A stretch of DNA of 42,617 nt from Candidatus Dojkabacteria bacterium (GCA_016927655.1 JAFGMG010000012.1:1-42617); one strand, 5' to 3'; numbered from the stretch's first letter, positions 207-15,807 are shown. Notes: generated by a model from the letters alone, not told the origin. Translations and numbers: made by a program.

Positions 207-3200
207 TTAACCGCATTTTGAAAATCCGCATCCCCTGCATAGAATACATCCCTCAGCATATTCGAGATCACCTCCGCATTCCGGGCATTCCATTAGATCC
301 CCAGTCATATTTTTTGTTGTGTATTTAGAGGAAGCCTCGATTACAGGCTTTGTGGGCGCAATCGTTTCAGCAATCACAGCATCATCTGCTGCCATTTCTT
401 CGATTTCTTCAGTCTTTTCATCTTTGCTTTTTTCAAACATTTTCAATTGCTCCTTCCGTTCATTCATATGTCTTTTTATAATTTTTGCAACTGCATCTGG
501 TACAGAATATACAAATACCCCTCCCTTATTCATCGTGGGCTGACCTGATCTTATTCCTAGCAGCTGTTTTATTATCTCATCAGTTTCGATTCCAGACCTG
601 AGCCCTAATGATACCAGTCTCCCAACTGCCTCCATAAATCCAGATGTAAAACTCCCGCTTTTGCCAACTCCCTGTAAAAATATTTCAAATGGTCCTACTT
701 CATCCTCATTAATCGTTACAAAAAGTCTTCCCTGATTTGTTTCAATCTTATATGTAAATCCCTTTACGACATCAGGTCTTTCTTTTGGTGTTCTTATCTG
801 GCGTGATTCTTCTTTGACCTGTACAATTTCTTTTTTCTTTTCAGCAGTCCCAACCTGAAGTGCAGCATCTTTACTTCCGTCTCTAAACACTGTGATCCCT
901 TTGCATCCAAGATCAAATGCCAATTCATAGACTTTTGCAATATCTCGCCAGGTTGCAGAAGCTGGCAGATTAATGGTCTTTGAAACAGCACTATCAACAT
1001 ACTTCTGAAACGCTGCCTGGATTTTCACATGCTGAGCAGGCTCAATTTCATGAGTTGTCACAAATATGTCAATCACATCATCTGGAATATTGTACTTATC
1101 TTTTATTTCAGATAAATGCTTTCCGTTTGCAATGTCTTTGATTAATTCCTCGCTGTGAAACCCTCGCTCTTTTGCAATTGATTCGAATAGATGTTCAATC
1201 ACTTCCTGATCAGCGCCGCCCATAGAATTTTTCCTCCTATAACCTAGTGCAAAAATCGGCTCTATTCCAGGATTACAATTTGCGATAATACTTACACTTC
1301 CAGTTGGAGCTATCGTTGTTGTTCTTGTATTGCGCATAAATTTAATTTTTGGATTTTGAGCCCATATTGAATTTTCAAATTCAGGGAAATTCCCTTTTTC
1401 TTCGCCTAGTTCTTCGCTAGCTTCATGTGCTTTTTGCTGTATAAATTTCATGATTTTCTCAGCTGCAATTTCAGCCTCATTTGACTTGTATGAAATGCCA
1501 AGCTTTATCAGAAAGTCCGCGTAACCCATCACTCCAAGTCCTACATTCCTTGTTCGAGTAGTCATTTCTTCAATTTCTCTTATTGGATAGTTATTAATAT
1601 CTATTATATTATCCAAAAACCGCACTCCAAGCTTTGTCACTTGTTCAAGCCTTTCCCAGTCAATTGTTTTTAATTTCTCTGGTAAATCCATATCCCTTAT
1701 CTTTGGATTTTCAAGATATGGGAATCCTTTTATAAATTTCGATACGTCGATATTTCCAAGATTGCATGTCTCGTATGGTATTAGAGGCTGCTCTCCGCAT
1801 GGATTTGTACTATCCATTTTGCCAAGTTCCGGCGTTGTATTCCCTTTCTCCGCAGTATCAATAAAGAACATTCCCGGATCTCCGCTAAGCCAGGCATGTT
1901 CAGCAATTTTTTGAAATAGTTCGCGCGCTTTTATTGTTTTGCATACTTCTCTGCTGTGGGGATCAATCAACTCCCATTCCTGATCCTCTTTGACAGCCTT
2001 CATGTATTTATTCGTAATACCAACTGAGATATTGTAATGAGAAAGCCCTTCCAAATCGTCTTTAACTCGTATAAAGTGCTCAATGTTTGGATGATCTACA
2101 TTTAAAATTGCCATTGAACCTAATCCTCTTCCTCCTCGGCCCTTTATAGTATCTTGGGCACGGTTAAACATCTTCAAATATTCAATTGGACCCGCAGCTT
2201 TCTCTCCTGTTGTTTTGACAATTGCATAGGTACTGCGAATTTTTGAGAAATTAAACCCAGTACCAACCCCGCGTCTTAGCATTTGAATGTTTTGATTCAA
2301 TGCCCCAAATATAGAATCAATTGAATCGTCTATTGGCAGGACGAGGCATTTTGACATTACAGAATCAGTCCCAAGTCCAGCATATATTAAAGTCCCTCCG
2401 CTCAAAAATTCGCCTGAATTCATTATTTCAAAAAATTCTTTCTCATATCTCCTGGCTTTTCTTCCATCATATTTTGTTTCCGCCCCTGCCACATACCTTG
2501 CAATTCTTTTCCAAAGCTCATCTGGTGTTTCAATCACATTTCCATTATCGTCTTTTTTGAGTGCCCGTTTTTCTAGTACCTGATATGCATTTGGCGTTAA
2601 TTCATATGTATCTGTGTATTTAAATTCGCTTTCTTCCTTTTTCACAGATTCCACTTGTTTTTTGTCGGTACTATTTTCAAGTACCTGCATCTGCTTGCTT
2701 CCATCGCGGTAAATCGTAATTCCCTTGCAGCCGGTTTCCCAGGCTTGTATATATGATTTCCTCACATCCTCAACAGTTGCATCATTTGGAAGATTTATTG
2801 TTTTTGAAACCGCTGCATCAACAAATTTCTGTGCTGCTGATTGAATTTTTACGTGCCATTCAGGGCTTACATCATGAGTGGTGACAAATATTTTCTTTGC
2901 TTCATCTGGGACCTCATCAAGCCCTGCAAGTGAGCCGTTATTTTCAGCAATTTTCTCCATCAATTCCTTCGAGTAGAATTTGTGTTTTTTTGCATAGGCT
3001 TCGAATTGCTCGTTAACGTAGAGTAACTGCTTATGATCTTCTTTGCCGTCATCCTGGTAGAATCCCCTGTATTTATACACTAATGAAAATACCGGCTCGA
3101 TCCCGCTTGATGTGTTTGCAATCAGGCTGAGTGTGCCTGTTGGAGCAATTGAGCTCATAGTGGCATTGCGCACTTTTTTCCCTTCTTTTTCCCATTTACT

Positions 3201-4463
3201 ATTTTTAAACCCCGGAAAAGTCCCTCTATTTTTAGCAAGTGTGATTGATGCTTTTTCAGCTTCTTCCTGGACAAATTTCATTATTTTTGTTGTCAAATCA
3301 ATTGCCTCGTCGCTGTTGTATGGTATTTTCATCTCGAAAAACAATGTAGCAAGACCTACCAAACCAAGACCAAGCTTTCTTGTCTTTTCAACCTCACGCT
3401 TTATCTTTTCAAGAGGATATACGCTTAAATCGATCATATTGTCTAGAATATTTATCGCTTTGTGAGTTGAATCTTTTAGCTTGTCCCAGTCAATTTGTCC
3501 TTTTGAATCCAAATGCGATGGCAGTACAATAGATCCAAGATTGCATGATTCATAAGCTCTTAATGGCTCCTCACCGCAAGGGTTCGTCGCTTCTATCACC
3601 CCAATCTCAGGTGTCGGATTAGCTCTCTGCGCTGTATCAAGAAAAAATAATCCTGGATCCGCACATTCCCATGCGCTCTGGCATATTTTATCAAATACAT
3701 CTCTAGCTCTTAATTTATCTACCACTTCGTCATTTCTTGGGTTTATCAATTCATATTCTTCATCGTTTTTTACCGCGTTCATAAATATATCGGTAATTCC
3801 TACCGATAGATTGAAATTTCTGATTACAGATTCCCCAGACTTCAAATCAATAAAATCTAAAATATCTGGATGATTTACGTTCAAAATACCCATATTCCCA
3901 CCTCCGCGCTTTTTCCCCTGCAATATATGATCAAAAGATTGAGAATAACTTCTTATAAAATGAATCGGGCCTGCAGCTACATTTGGAGTTCCCCCGACAC
4001 TGTCACCCTTTGGACGAATATGCGAAAAATTAAATCCCGTACCTCCGTTATTTTTCTGAACTATAGCGGCTTCTTTCATTGTCTGAAAAATACTATCAAG
4101 ACCATCCTCAACGGGTAATACAAAGCATGACGCAAGCTGTCCTGTGCCATCTATATAATTTCCTGCTTCGTAAAGAACCCTAGCTCCCGGAAGAAACTTA
4201 TTTCTGCTCATCAGATCATAAAACTCTTTTGCTTTTTTGTTTATTTCAAGCATAGAAAATCCGTTTTTTCTTTCTTCAAGTGCGAAAGAAGCCGCTACTC
4301 TCCAAAACATTTCCTTTGGACCTTCAAGAAAATCGCCCTTTTCGTTTTTTAGGAAGCTGCGTTTCTTCATGATTTCAAGTGTGTTTTTGGATATATTTGG
4401 CTTCTCCAGCTCCTTTGGCGGATTTTTTATAAATTCAAGCTCGTCTTTCGTATATTTTTTCAT
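207..4463 (-). CDS. nrdJ: Tandem-duplicated class II (adenosylcobalamin-dependent) ribonucleoside-diphosphate reductase, two catalytic domains in one chain plus C-terminal Cys-rich tail
   Basis: Two copies of RNR motifs: SCFVLP...GGTGFNFS...NPCGEEPLRAYESCNLGS...APTGTLSLIAN...GITIYRDGSK and KCLVLP...GVGTGFNFS...NPCGEQPLIPYETCNLGN...APTGSVSIIAN...GITVFRDGSK; C-terminal CPECGGDLEYAEGCILCRGCGFSKCG; RBS-like AAAGGAAC upstream of ATG. Confidence 0.95.
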   Translation of the reverse strand: MKKYTKDELEFIKNPPKELEKPNISKNTLEIMKKRSFLKNEKGDFLEGPKEMFWRVAASFALEERKNGFSMLEINKKAKEFYDLMSRNKFLPGARVLYEAGNYIDGTGQLASCFVLPVEDGLDSIFQTMKEAAIVQKNNGGTGFNFSHIRPKGDSVGGTPNVAAGPIHFIRSYSQSFDHILQGKKRGGGNMGILNVNHPDILDFIDLKSGESVIRNFNLSVGITDIFMNAVKNDEEYELINPRNDEVVDKLRARDVFDKICQSAWECADPGLFFLDTAQRANPTPEIGVIEATNPCGEEPLRAYESCNLGSIVLPSHLDSKGQIDWDKLKDSTHKAINILDNMIDLSVYPLEKIKREVEKTRKLGLGLVGLATLFFEMKIPYNSDEAIDLTTKIMKFVQEEAEKASITLAKNRGTFPGFKNSKWEKEGKKVRNATMSSIAPTGTLSLIANTSSGIEPVFSLVYKYRGFYQDDGKEDHKQLLYVNEQFEAYAKKHKFYSKELMEKIAENNGSLAGLDEVPDEAKKIFVTTHDVSPEWHVKIQSAAQKFVDAAVSKTINLPNDATVEDVRKSYIQAWETGCKGITIYRDGSKQMQVLENSTDKKQVESVKKEESEFKYTDTYELTPNAYQVLEKRALKKDDNGNVIETPDELWKRIARYVAGAETKYDGRKARRYEKEFFEIMNSGEFLSGGTLIYAGLGTDSVMSKCLVLPIDDSIDSIFGALNQNIQMLRRGVGTGFNFSKIRSTYAIVKTTGEKAAGPIEYLKMFNRAQDTIKGRGGRGLGSMAILNVDHPNIEHFIRVKDDLEGLSHYNISVGITNKYMKAVKEDQEWELIDPHSREVCKTIKARELFQKIAEHAWLSGDPGMFFIDTAEKGNTTPELGKMDSTNPCGEQPLIPYETCNLGNIDVSKFIKGFPYLENPKIRDMDLPEKLKTIDWERLEQVTKLGVRFLDNIIDINNYPIREIEEMTTRTRNVGLGVMGYADFLIKLGISYKSNEAEIAAEKIMKFIQQKAHEASEELGEEKGNFPEFENSIWAQNPKIKFMRNTRTTTIAPTGSVSIIANCNPGIEPIFALGYRRKNSMGGADQEVIEHLFESIAKERGFHSEELIKDIANGKHLSEIKDKYNIPDDVIDIFVTTHEIEPAQHVKIQAAFQKYVDSAVSKTINLPASATWRDIAKVYELAFDLGCKGITVFRDGSKDAALQVGTAEKKKEIVQVKEESRQIRTPKERPDVVKGFTYKIETNQGRLFVTINEDEVGPFEIFLQGVGKSGSFTSGFMEAVGRLVSLGLRSGIETDEIIKQLLGIRSGQPTMNKGGVFVYSVPDAVAKIIKRHMNERKEQLKMFEKSKDEKTEEIEEMAADDAVIAETIAPTKPVIEASSKYTTKNMTGDLMECPECGGDLEYAEGCILCRGCGFSKCG

Positions 4464-4486: not shown

Positions 4487-4897
4487 TTATTTCCTAAATG
4501 CGGCCTTTAGAATTTCATCTGTGCCCCTGAGCAGCGGGACATTTTTCAAATTTGAGATCGGGAACCATCCGACATCAAGAATGTCATCATGATCATCCAG
4601 GTTCATCAATTTCTCGCTTTTTGTCTGGGCAATGTAGTGAATAAGTGTCAATTGTTTATCCTTCTCATATAAATAACTTTGAATTACAGGCAGCAATTTC
4701 AAATCAACAATTTTTATTCCAATTTCTTCTTTGCATCTTCTAACTAATGTTTCCTCAGGATGCTCTCCAAACTGTATAATTCCTCCCGGCAGCGCCCACT
4801 TTTTGTGAAATTTCGGGTTCGGATCATTTCTCTGCTGCAAGATCACATTATTGTTTTTTACGATAACTCCAAAGCTGCCCCATAACTGCTGTTGCAC
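4487..4897 (-). CDS. Nudix hydrolase family protein
   Basis: Nudix-like motif GGIIQFGEHPEETLVRRCKEEIGI; GTG start. Confidence 0.85.
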   Translation of the reverse strand: MQQQLWGSFGVIVKNNNVILQQRNDPNPKFHKKWALPGGIIQFGEHPEETLVRRCKEEIGIKIVDLKLLPVIQSYLYEKDKQLTLIHYIAQTKSEKLMNLDDHDDILDVGWFPISNLKNVPLLRGTDEILKAAFRK

Positions 4898-5003: not shown

Positions 5004-6764
5004 CTATTTTTTTAGATTTAAAACCTGTTTGTCACGACTTTTATCTCTATAAATTGTCAAACCTTTCAGGTGTTGATCAATCGCAAGATAAAATGCTTTT
5101 TCAATATCTTCGACTGTTGATTTCTCAGGTAAATTAATTGTTTTTGAAACAGCATTATCTGTATATTTCTGAAATGCTCCCTGCATCTTTATGTGCCACT
5201 CTGGAGCAATATCATAAGAAACTACAAATATTTTTTTAATTTCTTCCGGCATTTCATCTATATTTTGCAATGTGCCTTCTTTTGCAATTTTTTCCATGAT
5301 TTCCTGCGAATACATCCAGTCCTTTTTCAGTCTTTTTTCTAATATTGCATTTGTCATTATCATTTCTGTTTCTGCTCCAACTGTTTCCATATTTTTGCGT
5401 ACATAGGCAAGTGCAAAAACCGGCTCAATTCCTCCATTTACATCTGCAACAAGTGATGTTGTGCCATTTGGTGCAATAGTTGTTACCGTTGCATTTCTCA
5501 TATGCTTGTAGCCTTTTTTGTCCCACCTGGAGCCTTTGAAATTCCCAAAATCTCCCTTTTGTTCTCCAAGCTCCTGTGATGCTTCGTGTGATTTTTCCTG
5601 GATGAATTTCATAACTTTTCTGGCAAGAACCAATGCTTCTTCGCTGTCATATGGAATTTCAAGTAAATAAAGTAAATCAGCCCAGCCCATAACTCCAATT
5701 CCCACTTTTCTGTTTCCATATTTGACCATTTGCTCAATCTCAGGTAATAAATGCTTTGAGACTGTGATTGTATTGTCTAGAAACCTAACGCCTGTTTTGA
5801 CAACGTATTCAAGTCTATCCCAGTCAATCCTGCCACCATTGTAGAATTTAGAAAGGACAACTGAACCTAAATTGCATGCCTCATATGGAAGCAGAGGCTG
5901 CTCACCGCATTGGTTTGTCGCAGTCATTTTCCCGACGTTTGGTGTTGGATTTGTACGATTTACCTCATCGATAAATATAAATCCCGGCTCTCCGCTTCTA
6001 TATATCGAATCTGTTATCTCACGAAGCAGCTTTTTTGGATCAATTTCGCGATATATTTTCCCGCCAAATTCCAGTTCAAAAGTTTTTCTTTCTTTGAGGG
6101 CCTCTACAAATTTATCTGTAATTGCAATGGAAATATTGAAATTTGTCAGCTGCGAATAATCCTGCTTTGCACTTATAAACTTCTCAATATCAGGATGATC
6201 TATCCGCAAAATTCCCATATGACCTGCATGCCTTTGAGACCCGCGGTTCATGATTGTTTCAGATGAAAAGTCGTACAACCTCATAAATGAAATTGGTCCG
6301 CTTGCTTCTCTGCCAGTTGAATGTACTTTTTCACCCTCCGGCCTGACTTCTGACCAGTCGTAGCCGATACCGGCTCCACGCCTGTGAAGAGTAGTTGTAT
6401 TTGCCAAAGTTGTATAAATTGACTCAACTGAATCATGGATAGGCATTACATAGCATGCTGCAACCAGCTCTTCGCGCCCACGATCCAGCAGACTCATACC
6501 GGATAGAAATTCAAGATTTGCCTGAATTTCATAAAAATCATCTTCAATTTTCTCTAATTCATTTTTATTTGGTGCTTTGTAGCCTTTTTTCTTGTCACTC
6601 AGATCTTTTTCTCCCGATGCAATAAATTCTGATACTCTTTTGAATAAATCCGATATACTTTCCTTTGGATTACCAGATTCGTCAACTTTTAAATATCTCT
6701 TAGCGGCAATAAATCTTGCATTCTGGCTCAAATTTGGTTTTAGTGAAAATCTACTGTTTTTCAA
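5004..6764 (-). CDS. nrdJ: Class II ribonucleotide reductase, single catalytic core without C-terminal Cys-rich tail
   Basis: 586 aa; AACYVMP, GAGIGYDWSEVRPEG, NQCGEQPLLPYEACNLGS, APNGTTSLVADVNGGIEPVF, KGLTIYRDKSRDKQV; ends directly after the core. Confidence 0.93.
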   Translation of the reverse strand: MKNSRFSLKPNLSQNARFIAAKRYLKVDESGNPKESISDLFKRVSEFIASGEKDLSDKKKGYKAPNKNELEKIEDDFYEIQANLEFLSGMSLLDRGREELVAACYVMPIHDSVESIYTTLANTTTLHRRGAGIGYDWSEVRPEGEKVHSTGREASGPISFMRLYDFSSETIMNRGSQRHAGHMGILRIDHPDIEKFISAKQDYSQLTNFNISIAITDKFVEALKERKTFELEFGGKIYREIDPKKLLREITDSIYRSGEPGFIFIDEVNRTNPTPNVGKMTATNQCGEQPLLPYEACNLGSVVLSKFYNGGRIDWDRLEYVVKTGVRFLDNTITVSKHLLPEIEQMVKYGNRKVGIGVMGWADLLYLLEIPYDSEEALVLARKVMKFIQEKSHEASQELGEQKGDFGNFKGSRWDKKGYKHMRNATVTTIAPNGTTSLVADVNGGIEPVFALAYVRKNMETVGAETEMIMTNAILEKRLKKDWMYSQEIMEKIAKEGTLQNIDEMPEEIKKIFVVSYDIAPEWHIKMQGAFQKYTDNAVSKTINLPEKSTVEDIEKAFYLAIDQHLKGLTIYRDKSRDKQVLNLKK

Positions 6765-7203
6765 GTTCGGCTATTTCTTTTTTAAAATCGTTAATTGAAT
6801 TGAAATCGCGGTAAACAGATGCGAATAGTAAATATCCAACTGAATCCAGCTTTCTAAGTCTGGTCAGCACCATCTTTCCTATATCGGTTGATTTAACCTG
6901 GGTCGTTCTTCTGTTTAACAATCTAAGCTCTATATCATCTATCAGCTCTTCAATTTGTTCGTCATTTATGGGTCTCTTTTTGACTGCCTTTAAAACACCT
7001 TTTTTTAACTTCTCTCTGTCAAATTCCTGCAATCTCCCTGATCTTTTCTCAACCATCAAAGATATATTTTGAATTCGCTCATAAGTTGTAAACCTTTTAC
7101 CACAATCCAGGCACTCCCGCCTTCTCCTTGTTGCGCTGGTTTCATCGTTATCCCTTTTATCAACTACTTTATTCTCTTTTGATTTGCAATATGGGCAAAG
7201 CAA
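6751..7203 (-). CDS. nrdR: Transcriptional repressor NrdR
   Basis: MLCPYCKSKENKVVDKRDNDETSATRRRRECLDCGKRFTTYERI zinc ribbon plus ATP-cone; overlaps the downstream RNR start by 14 bp. Confidence 0.97.
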   Translation of the reverse strand: MLCPYCKSKENKVVDKRDNDETSATRRRRECLDCGKRFTTYERIQNISLMVEKRSGRLQEFDREKLKKGVLKAVKKRPINDEQIEELIDDIELRLLNRRTTQVKSTDIGKMVLTRLRKLDSVGYLLFASVYRDFNSINDFKKEIAELEKQ

Positions 7204-7309: not shown

Positions 7310-7586
7310 GTATACACATTTTCCTGGTGGGAACAGACAGTAATGAAAGAAAGCAATAAAAGTGCAATTCTTTTATCAATTTTGTATGTCTGCCCCTTGC
7401 ATACAAACCACAATTTCTTGTGTGTGGAAACAGACTACATAACAACTCCTTGTATGTCAAGAATATTCCCAAATTAGATTTCAGGGCATTCAATTGCATG
7501 TTTCATGCATCTTGTTTTAGAAAGTTGCTCAATATTTGATATTTTTTTTCTATCTTGTAGAATAAAGATACTTTTAGAAAAGGACG

Positions 7587-13182: not shown

Positions 13183-15807
13183 CTATTTCCAAAGACTATA
13201 CTTACTTGTCAGTTCATCGATTTTATCCCGATCTCCCCAAATTCCAATCCCATAGTACTCCAATTCGTCAGAATTTTTGTCTCTTAGAACCTTATCGATA
13301 TCCTCGTCTTTCTTAACTTCAAGATGCTCAGCTAAAAATGGATACTTTATTAGGTTAGTATTTATCAACTCAGAGTTCAATTTTTTAAGAGCCTTCCCAC
13401 CAGTTTTCAAAACAACAATTGGGTACTGACCACTTCTGTCAAAGCTTTCTCCAGTTTTGGTCTTATATGGCCTTCCAGAGTGAAAATTTTCTTTATCTAT
13501 TTGGTTACCAAGATATGCAGAAATATGCCCAACAGTATTCAAGACCTTCCAGTTTTCCAGGTCTTCATTGACTACTATGACTATTTTCTTGCTCATGTCC
13601 TGATTCCCACTTTTTGCGGTAACTGCAGGTTCTTTATTACCAACGTTTTCTTGTGTGTAATCCTTCTCCCCGCTAAACTCTTTCATATTGCTAAATGTCT
13701 TTATCAGACTTTCTGCTAGCTCACCAAAGTCTATTCCAAGACCATCTATCCCCAACTGCACGTCTTCTCTGTCAATCTTTCTTGCGAAGCCTTTGTCTTT
13801 GAATTTCTTCCTGATTGATTTGACCTTCATGTCATCAAATCTTCCATCTTTCATTTTCGAATATGCATAGAGGAGCCCTGCGAACTCGTCCACTGCTAAG
13901 ATTGCATTGGCCAAAACAGTCTTCGGCATCACATCTGTGAGTTTGTATGCATGCGCAGCAACTGCATGTATCATTGCCTCCGGATATCCCCATTCCTTGA
14001 ACCACTCTAACTCTGTATTAGGATGCTCGTCTGGGTGCTTGTCAAAATCAAGATCGTGAAATAGACCAGTTATATACCACAAATTTTTATCTTCATTATA
14101 CTTTTCTGCTAGATCCTCAAGCGCAGCTCCTACCATCTTTGCATGAAGGAATTGGTATTCATCCTTGACGTATTTTTCCAGTATCTTCAAAGCGTCTCCT
14201 TTGTTTGGTAGCCCCTTTGTATCCTGACTAATTTTTGGATCATTAGTCTCTTTTTTCCCTTGAACATTTAACCCAACATACTCTTCTCCATATATCTCTT
14301 TTTGTATTTTTGTCACTGGCGAGCGTCTCATCATCGGAAAGAAAATTACGTCATCTATATATTCCGACTCAGTAAACATCATCGCCAATCTTTCAATTCC
14401 AGGGCCCAGACCAGTGGTTGGAGGCATCCCATACTCCATTGCCTCTATAAACTCTATGTCCATTGGATGTGCTTCTTCATCACCACCAAGTTTTCTGTTA
14501 TGTTGCTCTTTGAATCTCTCAAAAAGCTCGACTGGATCGTTTAATTCAGTCCAATTGTCTCCTGCTTCCATTCCCCCCATAAAAACTTCAAATCTTTCTA
14601 CAAATCTTTTGTCGCCTTCCATTCGTTTTGCAAGCGGAGAAATCTCAACAGGATGACCGTAAATAAAAACTGGCTCAATAAGATGCTCTTCAACCTTGGC
14701 TTCAAAAACTTTAAACATAGACTCTCCAATTGATTTTGGTTTTTCTTCCTGGTAGCCTATTTCGTCTAGGATTTTGTGTGCTTCATCTAAACTCTTTACC
14801 TGGTCAAAGTCATAATTCGCATATTTTTTGACTGCATCAAGCATGGTGATTTTTGCCCATGGCTTTTGCAGGTCAACTTCCTGACCCTTTATTTTGAAAT
14901 TGTATTTATCAAAAACATTTTTCGCAATATATTTATACATTTCCTCAGTCAGGTCCATATTAAACTCATAGTTCTCATATGCTGACATTGTCTCAAGAAT
15001 ATTAAATTCAGGATTATGTGTTCTATCAATCCCTTCATTTCTAAAATAGCCAACTATATTAAATACATTTTCAAAACCGGCAACTATTAATCTTTTCAGA
15101 TACAATTCGTGTGCAATCGCTAAGTAAAAATCTTCCCCAAGTGCATTCACAGTTGTCATAAAAGGTTTAGCAGAACTTCCGCCATATACAGGCTGTATGA
15201 TTGGGGTCTTTATTTCCAAAAATCCTTTTGAGTCCATAAAGGCACGAATATTAAAGAGAATTTTTGCAGCAATTTCAAACTTCTTCATTTTCTCTGGATG
15301 CATTATCATATCCAGATATCTCTGTCTAAAGAGTGTTTCTTTGTCCTTTATTCCTTGATGTTTATCCGGAAGAGGTCGAATTGCCTTTGTTAGGATTTTG
15401 AACTCCTTTACTAATAAAGATACTTCCCCGCTATTTGTCTTTGTGACTACACCTGTAGCTTGGACTATGTCGCCAACATCTATTAAATTTAGATCCGAAA
15501 ATCCAATTGTCTGCTTTTCTTTTGAAGTTTCTAACAGTTCTTCGCCTTTGATATAAAGTTGTAATTGCCCAGTTTGATCCTGAATATGACCAAAAAATAG
15601 TGCCCCATGTTCCCGCTTTGATACCAATCTGCCAGCTACAGTCAACGTTTTTCCGTCATAGCTATCATAGTCACTGACTATATCTTTGAGGTGCACATCC
15701 CTCTTTGCTTTCGAAGGATATGAGTTGATTCCAAGTTGCTTCAATTTCTCAACTTTGTCTAGTCTTTCCTGTCTGATTTGTGCGAGAGTTGAGCGCGGAT
15801 TATCCAT
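13183..15807 (-). CDS. lysS: Lysyl-tRNA synthetase fused to an HD phosphohydrolase domain and a C-terminal DUF2000 (PTH2-like) domain
   Basis: LysRS class II motifs FRNEGIDRTHNPEFNILETMSAYENY and GLGPGIERLAMMF; HD part FLHAKMVGAALEDLAEKY...GLFHDLDFDKHPDEH...VKSIRKKFKDKGFARKIDRE; C-terminal KKIVIVVNEDLENWKVLNTVGHISAYLG...YYGIGIWGDRDKIDELT. Confidence 0.92.
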   Translation of the reverse strand: MDNPRSTLAQIRQERLDKVEKLKQLGINSYPSKAKRDVHLKDIVSDYDSYDGKTLTVAGRLVSKREHGALFFGHIQDQTGQLQLYIKGEELLETSKEKQTIGFSDLNLIDVGDIVQATGVVTKTNSGEVSLLVKEFKILTKAIRPLPDKHQGIKDKETLFRQRYLDMIMHPEKMKKFEIAAKILFNIRAFMDSKGFLEIKTPIIQPVYGGSSAKPFMTTVNALGEDFYLAIAHELYLKRLIVAGFENVFNIVGYFRNEGIDRTHNPEFNILETMSAYENYEFNMDLTEEMYKYIAKNVFDKYNFKIKGQEVDLQKPWAKITMLDAVKKYANYDFDQVKSLDEAHKILDEIGYQEEKPKSIGESMFKVFEAKVEEHLIEPVFIYGHPVEISPLAKRMEGDKRFVERFEVFMGGMEAGDNWTELNDPVELFERFKEQHNRKLGGDEEAHPMDIEFIEAMEYGMPPTTGLGPGIERLAMMFTESEYIDDVIFFPMMRRSPVTKIQKEIYGEEYVGLNVQGKKETNDPKISQDTKGLPNKGDALKILEKYVKDEYQFLHAKMVGAALEDLAEKYNEDKNLWYITGLFHDLDFDKHPDEHPNTELEWFKEWGYPEAMIHAVAAHAYKLTDVMPKTVLANAILAVDEFAGLLYAYSKMKDGRFDDMKVKSIRKKFKDKGFARKIDREDVQLGIDGLGIDFGELAESLIKTFSNMKEFSGEKDYTQENVGNKEPAVTAKSGNQDMSKKIVIVVNEDLENWKVLNTVGHISAYLGNQIDKENFHSGRPYKTKTGESFDRSGQYPIVVLKTGGKALKKLNSELINTNLIKYPFLAEHLEVKKDEDIDKVLRDKNSDELEYYGIGIWGDRDKIDELTSKYSLWK

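Follow-up and report, generated by a model that had tools for sequence, protein, structure and literature searches.

The window analyzed here, a stretch of 42,617 nucleotides from Candidatus Dojkabacteria bacterium (GCA_016927655.1 JAFGMG010000012.1:1-42617), encodes on its minus strand, at 207-4463, a class II ribonucleotide reductase (RNR; NrdJ) of 1,418 amino acids (aa) with two catalytic domains, D1 and D2, in one chain. The Candidatus Dojkabacteria (WS6) are ultra-small, uncultured bacteria. An earlier examination of this DNA from sequence alone (the sequence-only reading) had recognized the fused pair, which is real, and had taken the two-domain protein as the unit of interest, missing a third NrdJ catalytic module, D3, at 5004-6764 (minus strand). 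D3 and the fused protein are encoded in the same conserved operon, so what has to be explained is a system of three modules. We interpret the operon, nrdR-D3-NUDIX-(D1-D2-TSCPD-tail), as encoding a heteromeric, sub-functionalized, adenosylcobalamin-dependent class II RNR, and put the probability of this interpretation at roughly 55%. The system is a variant of class II RNR and not a new class.

The tandem gene is a single open reading frame (ORF) with an ATG start and no internal stops. Pfam resolves its product into two Ribonuc_red_lgN (PF00317) and two Ribonuc_red_lgC (PF02867; E 3e-252 for the whole protein) stretches and one TSCPD domain, in the succession D1, D2, TSCPD, Cys-rich tail; the all-alpha N domain and the 10-stranded barrel of class II RNR are thus each present twice. 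D1 (2658-4403; aa 21-602) is joined by a linker (2619-2657; aa 603-615) to D2 (828-2618; aa 616-1212), which is followed by the TSCPD domain (465-755; aa 1237-1333; PF12637, E 2e-19) and the C-terminal tail (210-314), all on the minus strand. Scored singly against the NrdJ model TIGR02504 (cutoff, 400 bits), D1 reaches 651 and D2 595 bits, and the model of monomeric NrdJm (RTPR, TIGR02505) gives each half 51-54 bits, far under its cutoff of 340. The equivalents of C134, N320, C322, E324, and C333 (Thermotoga maritima numbering) align in both halves; the chain thus holds two complete class II catalytic domains and neither is decayed, as the sequence-only reading had maintained. It had also assigned a single Cys-rich tail to both domains, and a tail (CPEC...CILCRGCGFSKCG) was indeed found after D2 only; its pattern, CxxC...CxxCxxC....C, is kept across orthologues of the tandem protein, and it is the sole tail of the operon. 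D3 (586 aa; PF02867, E 4e-118; TIGR02504, 588 bits) likewise carries all five catalytic residue equivalents and lacks both TSCPD domain and tail. Two simpler accounts of the long protein were rejected: an intein or intein remnant, as the added length is a complete RNR domain, and an internal start for a separate D2, as the linker contains no ATG and no recognizable Shine-Dalgarno sequence, only GTG codons.

The five catalytic residues are kept in all D1 (n = 18), D2 (n = 12), and D3 (n = 18) sequences. In the comparison of genomes G005 and G010, the only pair whose dS is clearly below saturation, the ratio of nonsynonymous to synonymous substitution rates (dN/dS) was 0.038 for D1, 0.025 for D2, and 0.024 for D3; purifying selection is strong on each of the three. 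It could still be argued that one module is a catalytically dead regulatory subunit, since the phosphate and loop 2 motifs described below deviate from those of characterized NrdJs and unusual apical-loop mutants of a model enzyme were often inactive (PMC8365446). However, with the catalytic residues invariant throughout and each module strongly selected, we consider a dead subunit improbable.

The sequence-only reading had proposed a genome search for other tandem NrdJ proteins, and the same continuous fusion was found in at least 10 other genomes, with the tail in frame in 9 of those 10. Fusion-bearing metagenome-assembled genomes come from the same order (G001, G003, G005, G006, G007, G008, and G010) and, more broadly, the same class (G012, G019, and G025), and every fusion-bearing Dojkabacteria genome also has D3, although in G010 it lies on another contig. 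In the latter three genomes (L037, L038, and L039) a HAM1 (ITPase-like) domain is inserted between D1 and D2 (PF01725, E 1e-13 in L038 and 3e-5 in L037; L039 was assigned by alignment). Doudnabacteria genome G126 (L187/L108) probably carries the fusion too, judging from a single frame that covers D1 and D2 after a run of Ns inside D1 (about L187:6870-6970). Outside Dojkabacteria and Doudnabacteria, where the survey covered the matches listed in the genome contig scan, there may be further fusions. That two genes were joined by an assembly error or a missed frameshift, which had been named in advance as one possible refutation, has nothing in the window to speak for it; the nearest things to it are a frame break after TSCPD in G008 and the N run of the Doudnabacteria copy, and the recurrence of the uninterrupted fusion reduces its probability to practically nothing. 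A viral origin was also rejected: the best 80 viral contigs have neither a two-domain frame nor a second NrdJ ORF, and the listed phage and plasmid matches, all below 60% identity, span 1.7-2.9 kb and are therefore too short for two domains.

Other Patescibacteria have 2-4 adjacent NrdJ genes, with clusters of three or four in L184, L185, L186, L188, L165, and L109, and in the tree these adjacent NrdJs group with D3, D1, and D2 (or with a D5 group); their genes follow the order D3-D1-D2. The genes near such clusters include corrinoid adenosyltransferases, NUDIX, MazG, and dCTP deaminase/dUTPase, which, as expected, fit deoxynucleoside triphosphate (dNTP) supply; a cobalamin adenosyltransferase gene adjoins the clusters in L184, L185, and L186. 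Dojkabacteria D2 and D3 each form a single clade (support, 100/99). The D1s of families f1 and f4 and those of f2 and f6 are not grouped together, and since the approximately unbiased (AU) test keeps one clade (p 0.10), a single origin of the fusion is not rejected; by this phylogeny one or two origins would both be compatible. The paralogues share about 40% identity, which bears on whether the copies are simply redundant, kept for dosage after plain duplication without specialization. It is common for a genome to hold several RNR copies, and redundancy was put forward earlier as the null hypothesis (PMC3019208), but paralogues this old, with module-specific specificity elements and a gene order kept across several Patescibacteria lineages, make it very doubtful here. 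Separately, two class III NrdD domains lie side by side in a relative from the same class (G013:C4:34966-38794), where another class of RNR may have been multiplied in parallel.

The modules differ from ordinary NrdJs, and from one another, in the elements that choose the substrate. Among ordinary NrdJ domains, 80/81 have a PN[ST]P apical phosphate loop and 79/81 a canonical loop 2 (QGGxRRGANM type); among the clustered paralogues, the counts are 7/61 for PNSP and 1/61 for canonical loop 2. None of the three modules in the window has PNSP: the apical loops read PGAR in D1, SGG in D2, and SGM in D3. Loop 2, noncanonical as well, reads QGKKRGGGNM in D1 and GRGGRGLGSM in D2. D1 of families f1 and f4 has PG[AS]R, Dojkabacteria D2 has [SC]GG, and D3 has mostly SG[MTF], the last two being shorter by 1 residue. 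More than 97% of NrdJs carry either PNSP (diphosphate) or P-[ASG]-G-R (triphosphate) (PMC8365446), and the D2 and D3 loops therefore fall outside the classes of that survey.

To locate the divergence, we scanned 561 windows (T. maritima numbering) for positions conserved within and different between D1, D2, and D3. The top-ranked window (1/561) was 195-206, a stretch in which loop 2 begins; the next separate window was 150-161, and the catalytic motifs scored low. Within loop 2, Q203 is kept in D1 (18/18), D4 (7/7), and the reference NrdJs (79/82) and is absent from D2 (0/12; a fixed G in Dojkabacteria) and D3 (0/18; a fixed R in Dojkabacteria). In T. maritima NrdJ, loop 2 projects Q203 to the pyrimidine substrates CDP and UDP (PMC3267527). 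Because this residue is kept in D1 and lost in D2 and D3, the pattern suggests that D1 is the pyrimidine-competent module. The sequence-only reading had raised specialization of one domain; the signs of it are there, in the 195-206 window and the module-specific apical loops.

In the mechanism we propose for the heteromeric enzyme, the three paralogous modules would use common thiyl-radical and redox-cysteine chemistry. Since the phosphate-binding apical loop and the allosteric specificity loop 2 vary from module to module, they would probably prefer different substrates (by phosphate level and/or base) and respond differently to effectors. The tail of D2 would re-reduce the D2 active-site disulfide in cis and, from a neighboring position in the complex, that of D1 and probably D3; the D1-D2 fusion would set the D1:D2 ratio and hold D1 beside the tail. 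Such sharing is plausible because in Stackebrandtia nassauensis NrdJ a subunit's tail reduces an active site located on a different subunit, a mixture of mutants reaching 30% of the wild-type Vmax with dATP, with higher oligomers formed (PMC5704485). Adenosylcobalamin dependence of the modules is predicted from a cobalamin adenosyltransferase gene in the source genome, in which no beta subunit was found. Several observations weigh against this interpretation. To be efficient, tail transfer in S. nassauensis needs dATP, with which the higher oligomers form; in L165, L188, and L109 every clustered NrdJ comes with a tail, so not all relatives depend on sharing; and D3 reduction might take a different route, such as the tail of a fourth NrdJ encoded elsewhere in the genome. 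The D1 phosphate motif is not uniform either, as D1 of f2 and f6 retains PNSP, and the orthologues are not independent of each other, so that the sequence counts represent a few evolutionary events and not 60. A more far-reaching form of the proposal, which we consider rather unlikely, is a hard-wired division of labor in which three or four unlike B12-dependent sites, two of them in one chain, would each be committed to certain substrates (the Q203-bearing D1 to pyrimidines; D2 and D3, which lack this residue, to other bases or another phosphate level), would share one tail, and would balance the dNTP pool by their stoichiometry.

The sequence-only reading had also suggested that the fused protein is a covalent pseudo-dimer. 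This alternative, which is compatible with a heteromeric, sub-functionalized RNR, would place D1 and D2 as a pair at the canonical NrdJ dimer interface, with two unlike specificity sites per chain and D3 as a homodimer. In general, RNR catalytic subunits are active as dimers whose specificity sites lie at the interface, and the monomeric NrdJ mimics that interface within one chain (PMC3267527). An AlphaFold2 model built on an alignment of 11 sequences has both barrels folded with the same succession of secondary structure, and its best Foldseek matches in the PDB are T. maritima NrdJ (1XJE/1XJJ), which it fits over one barrel with a template modeling (TM) score of about 0.82 of the target. The second paralogue-specific window, 150-161, also points this way, as the T. 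maritima helix at these positions is presumably part of the dimer interface. Nevertheless, the predicted TM score (pTM) is only 0.58 and the linker is predicted to be disordered (predicted local distance difference test [pLDDT] score, <30), so the model leaves the orientation of D1 relative to D2 unfixed and does not predict the proposed arrangement; in a deeper alignment, all single-domain rows fell on D2. Moreover, f6 has about 200 aa (the HAM1 domain) between D1 and D2, and in G154 and G121 D1 stands as a separate gene. We therefore regard the pseudo-dimer as a tentative possibility, with the odds somewhat against it.

Comparison with known systems places the modules closest to dimeric NrdJ (NrdJ_Z, TIGR02504; T. 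maritima 1XJE and S. nassauensis NrdJd), with which they share the fold, the five catalytic residues, the APTG loop, and, after D2 alone, the Cys-rich tail. Unlike dimeric NrdJ, there are two catalytic domains per chain, a third in the operon, and one tail for three sites, and the apical loops and loop 2 are noncanonical. The split NrdJa-NrdJb of Pseudomonas aeruginosa is likewise heteromeric, with a reducing function that serves a site on another polypeptide (PMC4520616), but there one enzyme with one kind of active site is halved, whereas here complete catalytic domains are multiplied; no catalytic unit is divided over two chains, as each module is complete. In monomeric NrdJm (Lactobacillus leichmannii, RTPR), too, one chain could in principle hold its own dimer-like specificity site; however, NrdJm consists of one barrel with an inserted interface mimic, neither half of the fused protein reaches the RTPR cutoff, and the modules lack the P-[ASG]-G-R loop of that type. 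Of 1108 multi-NrdJ organisms, 760 have nrdJ genes that differ in phosphate specificity (PMC8365446). There, too, NrdJs with different apical loops co-occur, but those are whole enzymes with PNSP or PAGR, whereas here the modules belong to one operon, two of them are fused, and their loops (SGG, SGM, and PG[AS]R) lie outside the four motif classes of that survey. Unusual length alone is seen in NrdJs with an intein (PRK08332, Pyrococcus furiosus type), which are likewise far longer than usual; there the added length is an intein, whereas here it is a second catalytic domain.

RNR is the sole de novo route to DNA precursors, and in the textbook enzyme an allosteric site determines which of four substrates the one active site accepts. 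Divergence of the substrate-choosing parts of the modules suggests a division of labor among them, which we did not find described for RNR; unlike but co-conserved modules, canonical in chemistry and altered in their specificity loops, make it testable whether fixed, paralogue-encoded specificity can replace or supplement allosteric switching. The fused protein, moreover, offers two class II active sites that are covalently joined by nature, a setting for measurements of how such sites communicate and share a tail. The sequence-only reading was aware of no tandem-domain NrdJ, and in agreement with this we found no description of one, or of a three-NrdJ operon, in open-access full texts (subscription papers being outside this scope) or by term search of the RNR surveys PMC9669993 and PMC9531940.

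On the minus strand the operon begins with nrdR (6751-7203), whose product has a zinc ribbon and an ATP cone (TIGR00244, 165.5 bits; cutoff, 124.7), continues with D3 and a NUDIX hydrolase gene (4487-4897; PF00293, E 2e-19), and ends with the tandem gene. G003 and G005 have NUDIX genes at the equivalent position. Two palindromic candidate NrdR boxes are predicted upstream of nrdR on the minus strand, box 1 at 7440-7455 (ATACAAGGAGTTGTTA) and box 2 at 7408-7423 (ACACAAGAAATTGTGG), 32 bp apart from start to start; box 2 is the best match to ACACAA-N4-TTGTGT, which we take to be the NrdR box consensus, and 0.3% of shuffles score equally well. Both G003 and G005 have such a pair, with the same 32-bp spacing, 5' of nrdR; G001 and G126 have one strong match at that place, and G006 and G007 have none.

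In the source genome, which is 97% complete, we found no match to class I beta (PF00268) or class III RNR (NRDD); D1, D2, D3, and the fourth NrdJ are therefore the only RNR found in it. The fourth NrdJ, a divergent one, is encoded on another contig (contig 10; L047:4010-6211; 733 aa) and has an N-terminal ATP cone, its own Cys tail, and the apical loop PGTR. In this protein PPSSG replaces the APTG phosphate loop, and it has orthologues in several Patescibacteria. Elsewhere in the window, 13183-15807 (minus strand) encodes a class II (D/K/N-type) aminoacyl-tRNA synthetase with C-terminal HD and DUF2000 domains.

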